Shown piece after piece: positions 13,787 through 62,248 of a stretch of DNA of 64,000 nt. The DNA is from Komagataeibacter oboediens (lineage in GTDB: Bacteria; Pseudomonadota; Alphaproteobacteria; Acetobacterales; Acetobacteraceae), in contig NZ_NKTX01000004.1 in the NCBI RefSeq assembly GCF_003207815.1, positions 1-64,000 of the forward strand. Direction: 5' to 3'. Both the position numbers and the translations under genes were made by a program. Under the pieces are notes generated by a model. It made no database searches. It saw only the letters and a program-made list of their open reading frames with translations, and was not told the origin of the DNA. Position 1 is the stretch's first letter, and each line of letters opens with the position of its first letter.

Positions 13787-14548
13787 TCAGGCCGGAGCGA
13801 TCCGGTGCAGGCTGGCACCATTGTCATGCAACCATTTTTCGGCCTGACGCCGGTGGGGGGTCAGCCGGTCCACCAGCAGCCAGAAATCCGGCCCATGATT
13901 CATGTGCCGCAGATGCGCAAGTTCATGGGCGATGATGTAGTGCTGCACCTCCTGCGGGGCCATGACCAGCCGCCAGCACAGCATGATCGACCCATCGGAT
14001 GAACAGCTGCCCCACCGGCTTTTCGTATCACGCAGCCTGACCTGCGTCGGTTTCAGGCCACAGGTTTCGGCCTGCGCGCGCAGGCGGCCGGGCAGGAGGG
14101 CCTGTGCCTGCGCGCGCAGATAGGCACTGACACGACGGGGAATGAATTCCTCCGCCCCGCTGACATGCAACCGTCCCTCTTCCAGCCATACGCCACGCCG
14201 CGCATCGGGACAGTGATGGATTTCATAACGCTGCCCATCCAGCACGACATGGCCGCCATGGTGCAGTTCAACAGGCGGTGGCAGGCGCGACAGCCCCGCC
14301 GCCACCCATGCGGAATGCGCCCGCAGCAGCGCCAGCCCATCCGCCCTGCGTGCCCCGCGCGGGAGGGTGATGATGACATGCCCGCTACGCGGATCGATCC
14401 GCATGGAAATACGCCGCGCCCGGACCGAGGTCCGCCAGCCTACCGTGACCTGCCCGGATGCAATCGGCACGACCTCCGTTCCGGCTGTCACCGCATCCCT
14501 GCCGTTAAAGACTGTTTCAGAAGTCCACCCACGAAACACCCTGCTCAA
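13787..14548 (-). CDS. YgjP-like M48-type zinc metallopeptidase (DUF45)
   Basis: A 253-residue SprT/YgjP-like (DUF45) protein. The zinc-binding motif HELAH is at residues 208-212, followed by the HMNHGPDFW segment that supplies the third ligand region. The preceding RDTKSRWGSCSS is the hallmark of the family. Predicted cytosolic; the substrate is unknown. The first 30 residues are poorly constrained and a later start is possible. It lies between two repeat copies (B and C). Confidence 0.88.
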   Translation of the reverse strand: MSRVFRGWTSETVFNGRDAVTAGTEVVPIASGQVTVGWRTSVRARRISMRIDPRSGHVIITLPRGARRADGLALLRAHSAWVAAGLSRLPPPVELHHGGHVVLDGQRYEIHHCPDARRGVWLEEGRLHVSGAEEFIPRRVSAYLRAQAQALLPGRLRAQAETCGLKPTQVRLRDTKSRWGSCSSDGSIMLCWRLVMAPQEVQHYIIAHELAHLRHMNHGPDFWLLVDRLTPHRRQAEKWLHDNGASLHRIAPA

Positions 14549-14560
14549 TTCATAAGGAAG

Positions 14561-14640
14561 TTTATGGTGAAGCTTTTTTCACGAAGCTTCAGAGAACGTC
14601 GCCCTTTTCCAAAAAGGGGGTACCCAGAAACTTTTACTAC
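14561..14640 (+). repeat. dispersed double-hairpin repeat, copy C
   Basis: GGTGAAGCTTTTTTCACGAAGCTTC is the first hairpin (about 14566-14590). GCCCTTTTCCAAAAAGGGGG is the second (about 14600-14620). The shared tail TACCCAGAAACTTTTACT follows. It sits between two minus-strand genes. Confidence 0.78.
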
Positions 14641-14645
14641 TCTTA

Positions 14646-15134
14646 TCAGCGGCGGGGCGGACGCGTGCGGCAGAATGCGTCCCGTGGGGCTTCGCCCGGC
14701 CAGTCAACCACATGGTCTTCCAGCATGCCCGCCCTGCGTTCACTGATTACCCGGCCACTTACGGACACACCTGCCTCATGCACCGTATCACGGGTGCCGG
14801 ACACCAGCGGGTGCCACCATGGCAGCGGTTCCCCGTCACGCACCAGCACGTATCCGCAGGTGGGCGGCAGCCAGTCGATATCCGCCAGCATTTCGGGCGT
14901 CAGGCTGATACAGTCCTGCACCCGGCGCTGCCGATGTTCATAATCGGTACACAGGCATGATGTGGTGTCCAGCAGGCGGCAGGCGACATCGGTAAACAGG
15001 ACTTCGTCCGTCTCGTCCTCGCGCAGTTTGTGCAGGCAGCACCGCCCGCACCCGTCACACAGCGACTCCCACTGCGCAGAAGACATCTGGTCAAGAGGCG
15101 TCGTTTCCCAGAATGGCGGGGTATCATCTGTCAT
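14646..15134 (-). CDS. YcgN/YkgJ-type cysteine cluster protein
   Basis: A 162-residue member of the UPF0260/YcgN group of cysteine cluster proteins, thought to bind zinc or iron. It has CDGCGRCC near residue 28, a further Cys in the VACRLLD stretch, CLC in SCLCTDYEHR, and a later Cys in the CGYVLV segment. The length matches the family. The biochemical role is not established. It is 34 bases downstream of the small permease gene and may be cotranscribed. Confidence 0.88.
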   Translation of the reverse strand: MTDDTPPFWETTPLDQMSSAQWESLCDGCGRCCLHKLREDETDEVLFTDVACRLLDTTSCLCTDYEHRQRRVQDCISLTPEMLADIDWLPPTCGYVLVRDGEPLPWWHPLVSGTRDTVHEAGVSVSGRVISERRAGMLEDHVVDWPGEAPRDAFCRTRPPRR

Positions 15135-15168: not shown

Positions 15169-15654
15169 TTACTGGCCGCCCACCGCTGCCATTGCGCACA
15201 GCACGATCATGCCGAGGGAAAATGTCACCACCCCCGCCACCGGCAGACCCAGCAGCGGCAGCCAAAGCAGCCGGAGCCGCATTTTCGCATCCGCCCCGAG
15301 CCCGCTGGCCGTACGCGACAGGCCCGGCGGAATCCGGTCCAGCACCCGCAGCAGCGGCCACATCGCGGCGGGGGCGAGACACAGCCCCTGCATGACACAT
15401 CCCGCCATGCTGCTGCCATGCGCAAGCCACGGCCACCAGACCGCAAGACCCAGCCCCGGCAGCACAAGGGACAGCATCATGCCCCGCAGCAGCACGCACC
15501 ATGCCGGCCACGCGCGGTACAGCACGACATGCACCGCCACCACCAGCCCGCACGCCACCGCAAGCCCCAGCGCGATACAGGCCCCGTCCACCCCCAGCAG
15601 ACCAGCCGGTCGGATACCAAGGTCAGGCAGCATCAGCCCGCATCCCGCAACCAT
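15169..15654 (-). CDS. short ABC-permease-like membrane protein
   Basis: A 161-residue, strongly hydrophobic protein with four or five membrane segments. The C-terminal part reads like the EAA loop of binding-protein-dependent permeases (LSRTASGLGADAKMRLRLLW followed by LPLLGLPVAG). The loop's usual glutamate and first alanine are lost, and the whole is about 100 residues shorter than PotB/PotC-type permeases. Its start overlaps the end of the binding-protein gene by 22 bases. It is the only permease-like gene in the cluster, where two are normal. I infer a reduced or repurposed permease; confidence in the ancestry is moderate. Confidence 0.6.
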   Translation of the reverse strand: MVAGCGLMLPDLGIRPAGLLGVDGACIALGLAVACGLVVAVHVVLYRAWPAWCVLLRGMMLSLVLPGLGLAVWWPWLAHGSSMAGCVMQGLCLAPAAMWPLLRVLDRIPPGLSRTASGLGADAKMRLRLLWLPLLGLPVAGVVTFSLGMIVLCAMAAVGGQ

Positions 15655-16661
15655 GTATCAAAGCGCTGTGACAGCGCGGGATAATGTACCTGCCAGAACT
15701 GCACATCCACCGGCAGCGCCACGGGCGGGTGCGCCGTATCAGGTGGTGTGGCGGCGGGATAGCGGACACGGAACGCGGCCTGCTGCGCGGGCTGGACAAT
15801 AAAATGCAGCAGGTTGCGCGCCTGCCCCAGCCGGAAGGCCGACTGCCCCGCCACCACGCCCCATGACAGGCCATAGGACAGCGCCATGTCGGTATTGATG
15901 CCGATCGTGTTCCTGTGTCGCACGGAAATGTTGTGCACCGCATCGTCGGGTGCGCTGCTCATCAACACCTGCCCGCGTTCGAGGATACTGGTGGCGTCCG
16001 TCGGGGTGGACCACCACGTGATATAGGGGCGAAGCTGGCTCAGCTTGCGAAAGGCCCGGTCCACACCCTGCGGGGTAGCCAGCTGGTTATAGACATCGCC
16101 CGGTGCCACGCCATCGGCCATGAGCGCGATTTCCAGCGTGGTGCGCGGGTCGCGACGCAGGCCACGCTTGCCGGGAAAGCGTACGATATCCCAGAAATCG
16201 GCCCAGCGTGGCGCGGACCTGTGCCGTGTCTGGTCCCATGCCACCACCACCTGCGCGGTCAGCCCCGGCACGCCACACCCATCGGGGTTGGTGGCGCTAC
16301 CGGCCAGATGGATGACCAGTTCCCCCACGCAGGCGGCGCGTATGGTGCTGTCCTCGGCAAAGACCAGCGACCATGTGCCCGCGCGTCCCGCATGAAGGCC
16401 GTGCGCGTCGAGGTCCACCAGCGACCCGTTCCATGCCTTGCGCACCACCGGCTGCCGGGCGCTGCGCGCAAACGGCTGCAGAAAGGCCGCATCCTGCGCC
16501 TGTCCAAGCTGCGACTCCGTACTGGCCACCACAAGCGCGGCCCTGTGCCGCACGGGAACCGCCGCACCCGCCGGGGCAGGCAGCACGGCGGGGACGGACG
16601 CGGCCGCCAGCAGGCAGGACAGGGCGGCACGGACACGGGGACGGAACGCAAACTGGAACAC
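15633..16661 (-). CDS. PotD-like periplasmic substrate-binding protein
   Basis: A 342-residue exported protein. The signal peptide covers about residues 1-33 (arginines, a leucine/alanine core, APAGAA). The mature part resembles polyamine/spermidine-type solute-binding proteins: ADFWDIVRFPGKRGLRRDPR, TLEIALMADGVAP and the RAFRKLSQLRPYITWW block are typical of that group. Ligand residues cannot be assigned safely. It lies 45 bases after the degenerate ATPase gene and overlaps the short permease gene, so the three look like one operon. It may work as an orphan binding protein. Confidence 0.82.
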   Translation of the reverse strand: MFQFAFRPRVRAALSCLLAAASVPAVLPAPAGAAVPVRHRAALVVASTESQLGQAQDAAFLQPFARSARQPVVRKAWNGSLVDLDAHGLHAGRAGTWSLVFAEDSTIRAACVGELVIHLAGSATNPDGCGVPGLTAQVVVAWDQTRHRSAPRWADFWDIVRFPGKRGLRRDPRTTLEIALMADGVAPGDVYNQLATPQGVDRAFRKLSQLRPYITWWSTPTDATSILERGQVLMSSAPDDAVHNISVRHRNTIGINTDMALSYGLSWGVVAGQSAFRLGQARNLLHFIVQPAQQAAFRVRYPAATPPDTAHPPVALPVDVQFWQVHYPALSQRFDTWLRDAG

Positions 16662-16706
16662 GGACAGGAAACAGTCCTTTCAGGCATGGGCAAAGGATGC
16701 CGGACG

Positions 16707-17822
16707 CTACCCCATTTCACCCCGGAACGGAAAGGCAATTGCCTGCCCCGGCTGCCAGGCCAGTATGGCCACCTGCCCCGCCGTCACCCGCTGCAGGGCC
16801 GCGGTGGGCGGACGGCGCGCCAGCAGTTCCTCCCCATTCGCCAGACGGAATCGCAGCAGCACGTGATCGCCCATCTGGCGCATGTCCGTCAGGGTCGCCT
16901 CCAGCACGGGCGGCCCGTCGGGATCGGCGCCCCCCACCATGCCGGGCCGCGAGGGAAACATGACCGCGATCCGGTCCGGCCGGATGCATAGCGTGGCCAG
17001 CTGGTCCGCCTCCACCCCCGTGGCGGCCATGGCCTCGACCGGCAGGCCACCGGGCAGGTGCGCCACGGCCACATCGTCCTCGACACCGGCCACCCGCACC
17101 GTCAGGCTGTTGGCATGGCCAAAGCCGGTGGCCACCCGGTCGCACGCCGGACGGTCGAACAGGTCCAGCGCCGTGCCAAGCTGCACGATCTCCATGCCGT
17201 CCATGTAGCCGATCATGTCACCAAGCAGCAGCGCGTCCTCACGCTCACGCGTCAGCAGCAGCACGCACAGGCCACGCGCGCGCACCAGTCGACCAACCAG
17301 CCGCCGCATGGCCACGCGGGCCGCAGGCGGCAGGGGCGTGAACGGGTCCTCCAGCACCAGCACGGGCGGTTCGAACACCAGCGCCCGCCCGATCATGACA
17401 CGCAGTGCCTGCTCGGGCGAAAGCGTGTCGGGGCGGGCCTGTTCCAGCCCGTCCAGCCCCAGCAGGGCAAGCGCCGCGCGCACGCGTGCCGCCACGGCGT
17501 GCGGCCCCTCGCCACGCGCCCGCAGCGCAAAGGCCAGATTGGCCTGAACCGTCATGTGGGCAAACAGCGGGTCACGCCAGCCCACCAGCGCACAGGACCG
17601 CTGCCCCGGTGGCGCGGCGGTCACGTCCACACCGTCAACCGTGACCTGTCCCCCGAAGGTGGGGGCGTGACCCGCCAGCATGTCCGCCAGCACCCGCAGG
17701 CAGTCGGCCCGGTCGTTCACAACCGCCAGGCACGTACCCGCCATTGCGGAAAAAGACAGGTCCGGCGCACCGGAAAAGGCCCGGAGCGCGTTGACAACCA
17801 GCCGTATGGAGAAAGGAGACAT
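16707..17822 (-). CDS. degenerate ABC-transporter ATPase homologue (PotA-like pseudo-ATPase)
   Basis: A 371-residue protein that aligns end to end with PotA/UgpC-type ATPases, including the C-terminal TOBE-like part (about 230-371). Every catalytic motif is altered. The Walker A position reads NDRADCLRV (36-44) with no Gly-Lys-Ser/Thr. The Q-loop Gln is replaced in GWRDPLFAH (81-89). The signature is LSPEQ (134-138), Walker B is VLVLEDPF with D and E swapped, and the H-loop His is Arg in LLTREREDAL (near 192). The frame is open over its full length with genome-typical codon use, so it is not an obvious pseudogene. ATP hydrolysis is unlikely. A structural or regulatory role with the two downstream genes is inference. 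Confidence 0.8.
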   Translation of the reverse strand: MSPFSIRLVVNALRAFSGAPDLSFSAMAGTCLAVVNDRADCLRVLADMLAGHAPTFGGQVTVDGVDVTAAPPGQRSCALVGWRDPLFAHMTVQANLAFALRARGEGPHAVAARVRAALALLGLDGLEQARPDTLSPEQALRVMIGRALVFEPPVLVLEDPFTPLPPAARVAMRRLVGRLVRARGLCVLLLTREREDALLLGDMIGYMDGMEIVQLGTALDLFDRPACDRVATGFGHANSLTVRVAGVEDDVAVAHLPGGLPVEAMAATGVEADQLATLCIRPDRIAVMFPSRPGMVGGADPDGPPVLEATLTDMRQMGDHVLLRFRLANGEELLARRPPTAALQRVTAGQVAILAWQPGQAIAFPFRGEMG

Positions 17823-17860: not shown

Positions 17861-17921
17861 AAGCAATGGTTGCCTCCTTACCAGAGGGTTATTGACTTCA
17901 TTCGTCCCAAAGGAAACGATC

Positions 17922-18179
17922 ATGAGCAAGACAGAAACAATCAAGCACGTCACGCAAGAAGACCTGCAGGCCCTGAAGGGTCACATCGAAAAGCTGCTGC
18001 ACACGCACGGCAAACAGGCCCTGCACGATGTTGCCAGCAAGGCCGAGCAGCTGGCGGGCCAGGCGCGTGAAAACCTTGCGGAACACGCACCCAAGAAGAG
18101 CGGTTCACGCGCTCGTTCGCTTGTTGCTATCGCCATTTTCTCGGTGATCGGCTATTTTCTTGGCCGCGCAACGAAATAA
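17922..18179 (+). CDS. small DUF883-like membrane-anchored protein
   Basis: An 85-residue protein with an amphipathic, alanine/lysine/glutamate-rich helical N-terminus (about 1-55) and one C-terminal membrane segment (SLVAIAIFSVIGYFLGRATK). This is the layout of ElaB/YqjD/DUF883 proteins, which attach ribosomes or associate with the inner membrane in stationary phase in E. coli. The start at 17922 follows AAAGGAAACGATC; the frame also opens 30 bases earlier without a good ribosome site. It is paired with the next membrane protein gene 40 bases downstream. Confidence 0.75.
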   Translation: MSKTETIKHVTQEDLQALKGHIEKLLHTHGKQALHDVASKAEQLAGQARENLAEHAPKKSGSRARSLVAIAIFSVIGYFLGRATK

Positions 18180-18219: not shown

Positions 18220-18654
18220 ATGAGAATAGGCGAAATCGGCAAAACCATCATTGAAGGGGAACTGACCCTACGCAAGCTGATGGCGATCCGTCTTGGTCGT
18301 CAGGCCGCATTCCTGGTTGTGGCAGCCATCTTTGCCTTCTTTGCGGTTATTTCGGGCCATGGGCTGCTGTGGGCCTTCTGTTACCAGACACTGGGCTTCA
18401 GCGCCCTTGGTTCGGCCGCCACCGTATTCGGTGCGGACCTTGTGGTGGTCATCATGGGGCTGGTCATGGGCCGACGCTCCTACATGACACCGGAAGAGAT
18501 CCGCGTGCGATTCGCACGTGAACACGCCCTGAACGAACTGCGGCAGACCGTTGCCCTGTCCGCCGTGGCCACCACGGTTGCAGGTCCGCTGACCCGCCAT
18601 ACCGGCCGGGCGGTGTGGAACCTGTTCAGGGCCATGACAGGCCGCGGGAAATAA
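18220..18654 (+). CDS. holin-like/YqjE-type small membrane protein
   Basis: A 144-residue protein with two hydrophobic segments (about 30-50 and 60-87) and a charged C-terminus. It resembles the phage-holin superfamily III/YqjE proteins that commonly follow DUF883/YqjD genes. That neighbour relation (DUF883-like, then YqjE-like) supports the call. Role unknown; probably envelope stress. It is not evidence of a prophage. Confidence 0.65.
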   Translation: MRIGEIGKTIIEGELTLRKLMAIRLGRQAAFLVVAAIFAFFAVISGHGLLWAFCYQTLGFSALGSAATVFGADLVVVIMGLVMGRRSYMTPEEIRVRFAREHALNELRQTVALSAVATTVAGPLTRHTGRAVWNLFRAMTGRGK

Positions 18655-22176: not shown

Positions 22177-22555
22177 AACCTTTCTGCCAGCTGGCCCATA
22201 TAACGTGTGGCCGGCTGGGCATGCCCCCGGCCCTGCGTCTGTCTGTTTTATCCGCGACAGGGGCAGGGAAACGGGTCTCAAACCTGTTACCTTCAGTTTT
22301 ATGTAAAACGTCAGATGTCTTTGCGAAGTAACGCAGAGATACGGGAAAGAACAGATGCCCATAGCATCCCGGACAGGCGCAATGTGACCTGCTGGCATGA
22401 CTTTTGTCGTGCACTGCCAGAATGACAGGCTTCAGCCCTTTATAGGGAGCAGCAGACCGTTGCGATCCGCAGAAAGGGATATGTTCACTTAATTCAATAA
22501 AATCATGCCGGATGATTGTCCTGTGTCACGCATATGCTAAACAGGTCAGCACATG
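22177..22555. other. intergenic region between nodT and tRNA-Leu
   Basis: No gene supported. A ten-pair hairpin with one G-T pair (22187-22196 with 22209-22218) follows nodT without a U run. Near the right end, TTGTCC (22517-22522), 16 bases and TAAACA (22539-22544) make a weak promoter candidate for the tRNA. Confidence 0.5.
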
Positions 22556-22643
22556 CGAGCTTGGCGGAATGGTAGACGCACGAGACTTAAAATCTTGCGC
22601 CCGCAACAGGGCGTGCGGGTTCGAGTCCCGCAGCTCGCACCAC
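22556..22643 (+). tRNA. tRNA-Leu(UAA)
   Basis: A complete class II tRNA. The acceptor arms GCGAGCT and AGCTCGC pair fully. The anticodon loop CTTAAAA has TAA at 22589-22591. A variable arm (TTGCGCCCGCAACAGGGCGTG region) and the T-arm GCGGGTTCGAGTCCCGC are present, and the 3' CCA is encoded. The variable arm length fits leucine. The tRNA is followed by an integrase remnant and AT-rich genes. Confidence 0.97.
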
Positions 22644-22696
22644 GCAACACATTGATTTAATTTATACTTTATAAATTCCTGCAATCAGGTCTGGAT

Positions 22697-22981
22697 TTGC
22701 TACACACCCTGCTCCACCGGAGCCCTCGTATGGGGAGTAGAGGAGAGCTTATTCAAAAACAATCTGATTACTATTTTCGTTATCGCGTTCCTGCTCGTCT
22801 CAAGGGAAGCAGACATCTGGCATCCGCGGCAAAAGCCAAGGGGCAAAGTGAACAGATCAAGCACAATCTGGCACGTATGATTAGTGATCTTCGGGGCTTT
22901 TGCGTGGGATGCCGATGCCCTGATCCCAACCTGTCACTGGCACCATCAGACAGGTTAGTTTCACGTCCTGCAGTTTCATAA
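22697..22981 (+). pseudogene. integrase N-terminal remnant
   Basis: A 94-codon frame 53 bases after tRNA-Leu. The first half reads like the N-terminus of a tyrosine recombinase (GELIQKQSDYYFRYRVPARL, cf. the DUF6538-type arm of phage integrases). After about residue 65 the similarity ends and the frame stops. A further short stretch in another frame (about 22945-23083, ITDLEPETIYQTADTVAGCL) may be the continuation after a frameshift. There is no catalytic domain. I read it as the remains of an island integrase that used the tRNA as attachment site. Confidence 0.55.
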
Positions 22982-23494
22982 CTGATCTGGAACCGGAAAC
23001 AATATATCAGACTGCGGACACAGTAGCCGGTTGCCTCTCATCGCTCAGAATGAACCAGCAGTATCTTCCAACCACCGCCTGAGCAAACAGGATGCTGCGG
23101 GTATTGATCATCTTACAAAAACGGCTGTCCATTTCCGATTATGGCGGTGCATCAGGACAAAAGGTGCTGCTCTACGCTTCTGTTTTTCATCAATCAGGTC
23201 AGTAGCGTTTCATCTTCCACGTCATTCTGGTCACTTATCCATCCTGCTGTGGTATTCACCTTCCAATTCCGAATTCTGTGCAAAAATCAATGGATTTCCA
23301 AAAAATATACAGCCAGAAACCGCAATGAATATCACCACCCAGAACATTCTTTTGTTATTTATAATGAATAAATAATATAATATTTTATCGAAAATATAAT
23401 AAATTAATCAAGAAATCCTTTTACTCTCAATTCAGATATTTGATTGCCAAGAGTCTGTAATTTTGCGATGCACATCGAAAGATAAAAAAGCAAT
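22982..23494 (+). other. decayed AT-rich stretch after the integrase remnant
   Basis: No intact gene. Short overlapping frames show no conserved domain. Composition drifts from genome-like to very AT-rich (from about 23270), ending in the promoter region of the next gene. It probably holds further island debris. Confidence 0.5.
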
Positions 23495-25222
23495 ATGGAG
23501 AGAAACGTGAGTAGATTTATCCAGAGGCATGCACTCCAGAAACTAACCTTTCTGGTCGTCGCCATACTCACGTCACTGATCATCTGCTACCGATATCAAA
23601 TCATAAACCAGTTCTCTGTTCTGTTTGGAGATGATTACGATACGGTTATAGAAATTTCCATATTACACCATTGGAAAAATGTTTTCTTCAATGGTGAAAC
23701 ATGGAGCTCCACTCAATACTTCTTCCCATATCTGAAAACTCTTGGATATAATGATGGATACTTTTTATTTGGTATTTTATACAGCATAAGTCAATTTTTT
23801 ACAAAAAGTCCATTCATTTCCAATGATGTGACCGGTATTTTTCTTCATGTTATCGGTTTCTGTCTTTTTTATATCATGTGTCGCACCGTATTCAGGTTTC
23901 AATTTATTTCATCAATATTTGGTTCATTTATATTTGTAACATCAAATAATATATGGATAAATTCTGCGCATCATATCCAGATATTAATGATATACTTCAT
24001 ACCAGCATTGATCATTCTTTTCTACATATCACGTGAAAATTATATTTCTGGAAATCGAAAACGTTCTTATCTCTATGCTTTGTGCTGTAGTGCATTATGT
24101 GCTGCATGTTTCATGACAGGTTATTACATCCTGTGGTTCTTTGTATTTTCCATTTGCATACTTTTAGCGACGGTTTCCACGATTTCATGCATTCGAGGAA
24201 ACATAAAATCTGTATTCAATGCAGAAATCAATTTGTACCCATATTATTTCATTCTTTTATCTTCTTTTATTACATTAATGGTTCCGTTCCTTTACGTATA
24301 CCTAAGCAAAGCCCGCGAAACCGGCATGCACTCATGGGAAGAAACCTATGCCTATCTGCCACATCCTTATGATTTACTTCACATAGGACATTGGAACGGA
24401 GGGGTCATATTTGCCATTTCCGTTCTCAACCAGCTTGGGCAATGGGGAGTGGGCAGAGACCTTGTACTGCGCACGCCTTATCATTTCAGTGAACTTCTGG
24501 TCGGATTTCCGCCTGTTACCCTTGCCTTGGCCTTCTGGGGTGCCTGGGCAGGCACACGATATGGAACAGCACGTTACAGTAGAACAATATGGCTGATATT
24601 TTCGGTTACGAATATTATCATCCTGCTGCTCTGTTTCAAGCTCGGGCCACTTTCACTGTGGCAACTGGTCTTCCATCTTGTGCCGGGCGCAAAAGGATTG
24701 CGGGTCGTCAGTCGGTTTTTCCTGTATGAAACCCTCCCGTTATGTATTGCACTTTCACTTGCCTGCGATTTCCTTCTGCAACGCAGACAATATGTGCTGA
24801 CAACCGTCCTTCTGCTCATTGTTGTCTGTGAACAGGTGAATTTCTCTCCTGTTCTGGGCCTCTCCCTGAACAGGGAGCAGGCGCTTTATGACAGCGTTCC
24901 AGATAAACCCGCCCAATGTAAGGCATTCGTGGTAGCAGACACACCGCCTGCCGTCCCGGATAGTGGATACGACCTTTATCATGGCAATAGTTTTGCCATG
25001 CTGTATTCAGAGCTGGCACAGATCCCGACCCCTATGGGATTTTCCACCTTCAATCCCCCGGATTGGGACTTCAGTTCACCTTACGATGGAGTTCCCGGCG
25101 TTACGGATATTGCAGTGAGAGCAGTTCACTATGCCTCTGCCCACAATTTTTTACCTGGTCTGTGTGAATTATCCATCACAAAAAACACAGCTTCATGGCG
25201 AAACCTGCGCTCCATACCGTAA
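23495..25222 (+). CDS. multi-pass membrane protein, GT-C glycosyltransferase-like
   Basis: A 575-residue protein with about ten to twelve hydrophobic segments and a short soluble C-terminus. After the first membrane segment the loop carries FGDDYDTVIE, an acidic pair where GT-C enzymes keep a catalytic Asp motif. This suggests a polyprenyl-phosphate-sugar-dependent glycosyltransferase, but the family is not recognised with certainty. The N-terminal half is strongly AT-rich (many A/T third positions), unlike neighbouring genes, which points to transfer. It is followed by a GtrB-like gene 283 bases on. Confidence 0.55.
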   Translation: MERNVSRFIQRHALQKLTFLVVAILTSLIICYRYQIINQFSVLFGDDYDTVIEISILHHWKNVFFNGETWSSTQYFFPYLKTLGYNDGYFLFGILYSISQFFTKSPFISNDVTGIFLHVIGFCLFYIMCRTVFRFQFISSIFGSFIFVTSNNIWINSAHHIQILMIYFIPALIILFYISRENYISGNRKRSYLYALCCSALCAACFMTGYYILWFFVFSICILLATVSTISCIRGNIKSVFNAEINLYPYYFILLSSFITLMVPFLYVYLSKARETGMHSWEETYAYLPHPYDLLHIGHWNGGVIFAISVLNQLGQWGVGRDLVLRTPYHFSELLVGFPPVTLALAFWGAWAGTRYGTARYSRTIWLIFSVTNIIILLLCFKLGPLSLWQLVFHLVPGAKGLRVVSRFFLYETLPLCIALSLACDFLLQRRQYVLTTVLLLIVVCEQVNFSPVLGLSLNREQALYDSVPDKPAQCKAFVVADTPPAVPDSGYDLYHGNSFAMLYSELAQIPTPMGFSTFNPPDWDFSSPYDGVPGVTDIAVRAVHYASAHNFLPGLCELSITKNTASWRNLRSIP

Positions 25223-61450: not shown

Positions 61451-62248
61451 TCAGTTCCGCACATCAATCTTGATCGGTCCTTCGCGGCGACCATGGGTAA
61501 ACTGGTCCACCACCGGGTTGCCACTGTCGAACAGCCTTGATGGCAGCCCCTGCCAGATCAGCCTGCCCTCATACAGCATGCCGACCCGGTCCCCGATCCG
61601 CTGGGCGGAGGCCATGTCATGCGTAATGGCGATGGCGGTCGATCCCAGCTTGCGCACGCAGTCGGCAATGAGCCCGTCGATTACAGCCCCCATGATGGGG
61701 TCCAGTCCGGTTGTCGGTTCATCGAAGAACAGGATTTCAGGACGTGCCGCAATCGCACGCGCCAGTCCCACGCGTTTCTGCATGCCCCCCGACAGTTCGG
61801 ATGGCGACAGCGCGCCCACGGCGGGGTCCATGCCCACCTGTTCCAGCAGGGCACCCGCGCGTTCGCGGGCCTGCGCACGGGTAATGCGCGGGCCATGGCC
61901 CGCACGTGCGGCGGCGACAAGGCCGAACGTCACGTTTTCCCAGACACTCAGGCTGTCAAACAGCGCGCCATTCTGGAACAGCATGCCGATCCGGGCCATG
62001 TAGGGTTCACGCTGGCGAGGCGAAAGTGTCGTGACATCAACGCCATCAATCTCGATGGAGCCTGCATCGGGCGTGATCAGCCCCAGTATGCACCGCAGCA
62101 GCACAGACTTGCCCGTACCCGACCCGCCGATGACCACGAACGACGTGCCGCCCATGACATCAAGGTCCACCCCATCCAGCACCACCTTGGGGCCAAACGC
62201 CTTTTTCAGGCCGCGGATGCGGATCTTGGGTGTCTGTGTGTCTGTCAT
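61451..62248 (-). CDS. MlaF-like lipid-transport ABC ATPase
   Basis: A 265-residue ATPase of the Mla/Ttg2A type that powers phospholipid movement between membranes. Walker A GGSGTGKS is at 41-48, the Mla-typical LFQNGALFDSLSVWENV Q-loop region, the signature LSGGMQKR and Walker B ILFFDEPTTGLDP are all intact. I start at MTDTQTPKIRI, overlapping the mlaE stop in ATGA. The longer frame to 62506 lies inside mlaE. No mlaD gene follows. Confidence 0.93.
   Translation of the reverse strand: MTDTQTPKIRIRGLKKAFGPKVVLDGVDLDVMGGTSFVVIGGSGTGKSVLLRCILGLITPDAGSIEIDGVDVTTLSPRQREPYMARIGMLFQNGALFDSLSVWENVTFGLVAAARAGHGPRITRAQARERAGALLEQVGMDPAVGALSPSELSGGMQKRVGLARAIAARPEILFFDEPTTGLDPIMGAVIDGLIADCVRKLGSTAIAITHDMASAQRIGDRVGMLYEGRLIWQGLPSRLFDSGNPVVDQFTHGRREGPIKIDVRN

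Follow-up and report, generated by a model that had tools for sequence, protein, structure and literature searches.

A conserved ABC importer remnant with a degenerate ATPase and a reduced permease in Komagataeibacter and other Acetobacteraceae

In type I ABC importers such as PotD-PotABC and MalFGK2 of Escherichia coli, the ATP sites are intact and two complete permease chains are present. Pseudoenzymes such as catalytically dead kinases are well known, and in heterodimeric ABC exporters with one degenerate nucleotide site the partner subunit keeps a working site. Such exporters, whose ABC subunits have preserved non-consensus catalytic motifs over evolution, have been reviewed (PMC7756269). 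Here, we report on an importer-like locus of Komagataeibacter oboediens in a stretch of 64,000 nucleotides (contig NZ_NKTX01000004.1, positions 1 to 64,000), which is called the window throughout, and on its relatives in the Acetobacteraceae. Among the titles and abstract openings returned by searches of the open-access literature, none was found to describe this importer remnant, and the passages found in PMC12041372 do not deal with these genes.

In the window, three open reading frames on the minus strand encode a 371-residue ATPase homologue with a PotA-like nucleotide-binding domain (NBD) and a TOBE domain (16707-17822; open reading frame, profiles, fold model, and motif alignment), a 342-residue PotD-like solute-binding protein (SBP) with a GTG start (15633-16661; open reading frame and profiles), and a mini-permease of 161 residues (15169-15654; open reading frame, helix model, and EAA-like loop); the three lie where a sequence-only reading of this DNA had placed them. 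The ATPase and SBP genes are separated by 45 bases, the SBP and mini-permease genes overlap by 22 bases, and the N terminus of the SBP was judged by eye to be signal-peptide-like. On the same strand, a gene for a YcgN-family cysteine-cluster protein (14646-15134) lies 34 bases downstream of the mini-permease, followed 97 bases further on by a gene for a YgjP-like metallopeptidase-domain protein (13787-14548), both being conserved neighbours. On the plus strand, divergent from the cluster, are a gene for a small protein of 87 residues with a weak, sub-threshold DUF883 match (17916-18179), which is a neighbour in part of the loci, and a conserved gene for a small membrane-like protein of 144 residues with a sub-threshold match to the holin superfamily (18220-18654). 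Promoter and terminator scans gave nothing usable above background. Elsewhere in the window, a tRNA-Leu gene (22555-22642) is followed by a fall of the GC content to about 0.33 (22555-24000), which resembles the edge of an integrated island, and a second ABC ATPase, MlaF-like by eye, has an intact Walker A and signature (61499-62200).

The ATPase homologue had been described as aligning with PotA-type proteins over its full length, and PotA-type models do span most of it: the NCBIfam potA model matched residues 47-359 (E 5e-40) with 137.5 bits, far under its curated cut-off of 355.6, and the PhnT model matched at E 2.6e-41, while the Pfam cut-offs were passed by TOBE_2 (45.5 bits) and ABC_tran (34.1 bits). 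Set against intact relatives, the protein keeps the NBD and TOBE fold of a PotA-type ATPase and lacks its catalytic residues, with NDRADCLR in place of GPSGSGKT at Walker A, Trp (GWRD) in place of the Q-loop Gln, LSPEQ in place of the LSGGQ signature, ED (LVLEDP) in place of DE at Walker B, and Arg (LLTRERED) in place of the switch His, so that the motifs had been read correctly from the letters. The Walker A Lys was found in none of the 54 clade rows and none of the 32 rows of alignment A2, and Walker A as a whole was absent from all 65 degenerate rows, one of which (L129) does not align at all in this stretch. The clade-commonest residues at the positions of the Q-loop Gln and the switch His are likewise non-canonical. 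For Walker B, the proposed loss holds for the ED order of the window but not in the same form for the wider family, which mostly reads LLLDDP, with the first Asp kept in about 70% of weighted sequences and Asp most often standing where the catalytic Glu would be (0.64 weighted).

The orthologue search and motif comparison suggested by the sequence-only reading were carried out, and motif losses common to at least 17 genera were found. Within the genus, the pseudo-ATPase was present in 18/18 other Komagataeibacter genomes searched (the gene of G001 runs off the end of its contig), at 76-98% identity and with a frame open without stops, and the closest named record, from K. intermedius TF2, shares 98% identity with the window in the ATPase. 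The sequence-only reading had noted a gene free of stops and frameshifts in the window; in G322 (L076:1370-2442), a shift of frame around codon 45-50 divides the ATPase, through decay of this one copy or an error of sequencing. In the family, a profile of the degenerate protein matched 78 of the 299 Acetobacteraceae genomes sampled at E <=1e-70, of which 51 (E <=2.3e-76) formed an upper group and 27 a weaker one; the motifs were absent from 48 of the 48 genomes read in the upper group and intact in 12 of the 12 read in the weaker group. Three upper-group genomes stand outside the 65-row reading, two of them read separately (G189, G322) and one not read (G280), and alignment A4 comprises 30 of 31 rows, L127 being left out.

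The 65 degenerate rows (48 sampled genomes, 12 further Komagataeibacter genomes, and five named Gluconobacter loci, some of which may be one species present in two collections) cover 17 genera of Acetobacteraceae with motif losses in common, and the ATPase of an eighteenth genus (G019) is degenerate as well. Named genera carrying the gene are Komagataeibacter, Gluconobacter, Brytella, Swaminathania, and Ameyamaea, and the system is also present in small genomes of 1.7 Mb (G249) and 2.2 Mb (G088). In a quick tree built with the motif columns masked and after removal of 12 near-copies, 54 degenerate rows fell on one side of a branch, apart from the intact relatives (SH-aLRT 99); row L003 of this tree is an intact MlaF-like protein whose N terminus was trimmed in the alignment, and it is not degenerate. 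The five losses had been regarded as independent; since they are common to the clade by descent, they cannot count as independent events in this strain.

Despite the loss of its motifs, the pseudo-ATPase was modelled by AlphaFold2 as a complete NBD and TOBE fold (mean pLDDT 91.8, pTM 0.87), with a TM-score of 0.85 to PotA (8zx1_A) and MalK (9bcr_D). Residues that are the same as in intact relatives include L86, F87, H89, N95, R141, R146, and residues of the TOBE domain. Of these, L86, F87, and H89 stand just behind the former Q-loop and are conserved at 0.90-0.92, in a region that lies near the permease coupling helix in known importers. Furthermore, new residues have become fixed in the clade (among them P85, A182, and R326 at 0.97; C279 and F289 at 0.95), and the TOBE part is under tighter constraint than the NBD part (pN/pS 0.204 vs 0.317).

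The permease remnant of the degenerate loci has about 150 residues, and its model consists of four long helices and one short EAA-loop (coupling) helix (pLDDT 77.9). Its match to BPD_transp_1 (PF00528), at 16.2 bits, does not reach the Pfam cut-off of 26.4, and this family was matched at E up to 0.01 by 11 of the 47 mini-permeases kept in alignment A3, from which eight of 55 sequences were left out. With Foldseek, the best match was PotC (8y5f_C, E 0.032); the best 30 structural matches were all membrane chains of ABC importers, none of them attaining E 0.001. The most conserved part of the family is the EAA-like loop, in which R114, L119, G120, A121, W131, and L135 are kept at >=90% and P133 is invariant among the 47 sequences, and the conserved R-T-A-x-G-L-G-A ... 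W-L-P-L stretch could be aligned by eye with the EAA loop of PotB. The evidence on ancestry is divided: profiles favour PotB in more loci, and PotC is indicated by the iterated profile as well as by Foldseek. Neither of the two full transmembrane subunits of a complete type I importer was found at the degenerate loci, where the PotB and PotC profiles gave partial, weak matches. Taken with the intact Acetobacteraceae relatives, which encode an ATPase, an SBP, and two full permeases, these data support descent from an ABC importer, and the earlier view of an importer-derived cluster, in which a PotD-like protein is exported and the permease is reduced, is upheld.

Gene order is strongly conserved, the ATPase gene being followed by those of the SBP and mini-permease in 65 of 67 degenerate loci, with L053 and L056 as exceptions that end at a contig edge. 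Of 34 degenerate loci from 32 distinct genomes, all have the holin-like gene upstream; downstream, YcgN is present in 33 and YgjP in 32, and the small divergent gene occurs in 22 loci. None of these neighbours was found in the 12 intact loci. YcgN also occurs without the remnant nearby in most of the other Acetobacteraceae examined, 18 of 20 loci, some of them cut by contig ends, giving no SBP match. In two genomes, an opposite-strand 401-residue open reading frame, presumably for a 5-aminolevulinate synthase, stands between SBP and mini-permease (L114:9361-10566, L118:9531-10736).

Several other origins were considered. Decay in a single strain was rejected on the genus-wide presence and the 65 degenerate rows, and a chance open frame in GC-rich DNA was rejected on the conservation at the protein level over genera. 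Repeated loss of the same motifs is not favoured, the degenerate rows being one clade, and neither is a horizontally acquired cassette, because the same neighbouring genes recur across genera.

The SBP passes the cut-off of SBP_bac_8 (PF13416), with 72.1 bits against 27. Its solved relatives are 4i1d, 3rpw, MotA, and GABA binders, and the best of them include GABA, opine, and polyamine binders, these ligand classes being taken in part from entry names. Polyamines, to which the sequence-only reading had tied the ancestral importer, are one candidate ligand among several. In G031, the SBP lies between the holin-like gene and YcgN, without ATPase or permease, and of 17 small genomes followed up from the SBP search, 15 had the SBP and two did not; the latter (G071, G073) gave no SBP match at E 1e-30, for which reason the system may be dispensable. 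Twelve of the 15, together with G031, make 13 SBP-only genomes from six further genera, which is a new observation and, covering the 17 small genomes and G031, a lower bound. Neither ATPase nor mini-permease was found in any of the 13 SBP-only loci, matches to the ATPase profile being partial and elsewhere in the genome; the holin-like gene adjoins the SBP in 13/13 and YcgN and YgjP stand behind it in 11/13. Three g124 genomes considered as SBP-only were rejected, as their SBP differs, groups with the intact relatives, and sits elsewhere.

On the SBP tree, from which 19 named rows were left out (near-copies, including two of the thirteen SBP-only genomes, as well as L234 and L235), the SBP-only genomes stand in two places, one nested among complete loci (98) and the other on long branches; from these placements, the ATPase and mini-permease have likely been lost at least twice. 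Since the SBP persists where both partners are gone, it looks like the functional core of the system, with the ATPase and mini-permease as an accessory, ATP-independent membrane scaffold that is dispensable in these genomes. For the same reason, and because the ATPase has lost its ATP-site motifs, the job of the remnant is probably other than ATP-driven uptake.

Regarding selection, the remnant is under purifying selection that is relaxed relative to its neighbours in Komagataeibacter, where the ATPase had a median pairwise dN/dS of 0.205 (19 sequences), and the SBP and mini-permease, with 18 sequences each, had medians of 0.316 and 0.439. None of these sequences contains a stop, and all three medians exceed the values of eight neighbouring genes (0.026-0.176). 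The medians in Gluconobacter were 0.117, 0.081, and 0.161, respectively, based on the pairs that remained after divergence filtering (10, 7, and 12 of 21). In g67, dN/dS was 0.295 for the ATPase and 0.519 for the mini-permease (maximum 0.93). The signal region of the SBP had a pN/pS of 1.01. The selection on a non-catalytic role that the sequence-only reading had proposed is supported by losses shared over at least 17 genera and by dN/dS well under one; absent or drifting orthologues, or close relatives with intact motifs, would have spoken against it, and neither was found.

We give an even chance to the reading in which the three genes are the vertically inherited remnant of a PotABCD-type importer, selected without ATP hydrolysis, with the SBP as core on a scaffold of pseudo-ATPase and mini-permease. 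That a whole ABC importer has turned ATP-independent, its pseudo-ATPase and mini-permease serving as a platform for a repurposed SBP that stands alone in reduced genomes, is a tentative proposal that could well be wrong. In such a scaffold, the EAA-like loop of the mini-permease would dock onto the pseudo-ATPase at its retained L-F-x-H groove, the TOBE domain would be the most constrained cytoplasmic surface, and the two proteins together may anchor or tune, independently of ATP, an SBP whose periplasmic work could be ligand binding or buffering, or a chaperone-like task. The Komagataeibacter dN/dS above all eight neighbours, the frame break in G322, the weak homology of the mini-permease, its g67 pairs with values of up to 0.93, the two small genomes without an SBP match, and the dispensability of the scaffold in SBP-only genomes count against the scaffold reading. 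The first two of these, together with the SBP signal region (pN/pS 1.01) and the recurrent disappearance of the ATPase and mini-permease genes, would also fit a useless remnant in slow decay whose loss is still pending; this we consider improbable, given frames open over at least 17 genera with one break known, the low Gluconobacter values (0.08-0.16), the new fixed residues of the pseudo-ATPase, and the retention of the system in a genome of 1.7 Mb.

In a transmembrane sensor or regulator, ligand binding by the SBP would be passed on by the mini-permease, and the TOBE domain would capture or free a partner in the cytoplasm; such a role has a precedent in MalK-MalT, where an importer ATPase binds a partner of this kind. 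The tighter constraint on TOBE than on NBD agrees with it, as does the joint behaviour of ATPase and mini-permease, which occur together in 65/65 complete loci and are both missing from the 13 SBP-only loci. We hold it to be rather unlikely all the same, because the operon has no regulator as a constant neighbour, with a MarR-type gene near in some loci only, and because the SBP persists without the relay, so that the role of the SBP cannot depend in every case on signalling across the membrane via the ATPase; a sensor role, as the sequence-only reading had suggested, is possible, and the data do not need it. Could the remnant instead be part of a working importer, pairing its pseudo-ATPase or mini-permease with intact subunits from elsewhere? 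Another PotA-like ATPase with intact motifs (L002) is encoded in the genome of the window, and ATPases shared between importers are known (PMC7658222). Against this stand the lack of an intact ATPase or full permease at the locus, the four helices, which are few for a transport channel, and the joint absence of ATPase and mini-permease in SBP-only genomes, and we regard such pairing as very improbable. A small probability also attaches to a periplasmic or envelope task, related to metals or cysteine, that the SBP would share with YcgN and YgjP: both genes follow in nearly all of the 34 degenerate loci and stand behind the SBP in most SBP-only genomes, as counted above, yet in most of the other Acetobacteraceae examined YcgN occurs without the remnant, and in g65 no YcgN stands behind the SBP. 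The pairing of YcgN and YgjP behind the SBP (13787-15134 in the window) is seen over many genera, even without ATPase and mini-permease, and a functional link is possible.

An importer ATPase that has lost all its motifs, kept with a shrunken permease over many genera, amounts to a natural test of what ABC parts can do without ATP, and the SBP-only genomes amount to a natural deletion of the pseudo-ATPase and mini-permease genes. The three genes are conserved in industrial vinegar and cellulose bacteria and are unstudied as far as the titles and abstract openings reached by open-access searches show.

The closest known systems include the type I importers of E. coli, which the pseudo-ATPase resembles in its model and the mini-permease in its best fold match, PotC. 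The ATP sites of these importers are intact and their permeases comprise two complete chains, whereas here the Walker A Lys is missing from every clade row. The intact PotABCD-like operons of other Acetobacteraceae (L130, L132-L135, L137, L138, L140) lie on one strand and have an ATPase 33-37% identical to that of the window; where the gene order was read, the ATPase comes first, then the SBP and two full permeases. They differ in their intact motifs, in their PotB-like (about 400 residues) and PotC-like (about 270 residues) permeases, and in lacking all the neighbours conserved at the degenerate loci. With the heterodimeric ABC exporters, the locus shares subunits whose catalytic motifs depart from the consensus and have nevertheless been kept in evolution, but the locus itself has no gene for an intact partner, and its motifs were lost together.
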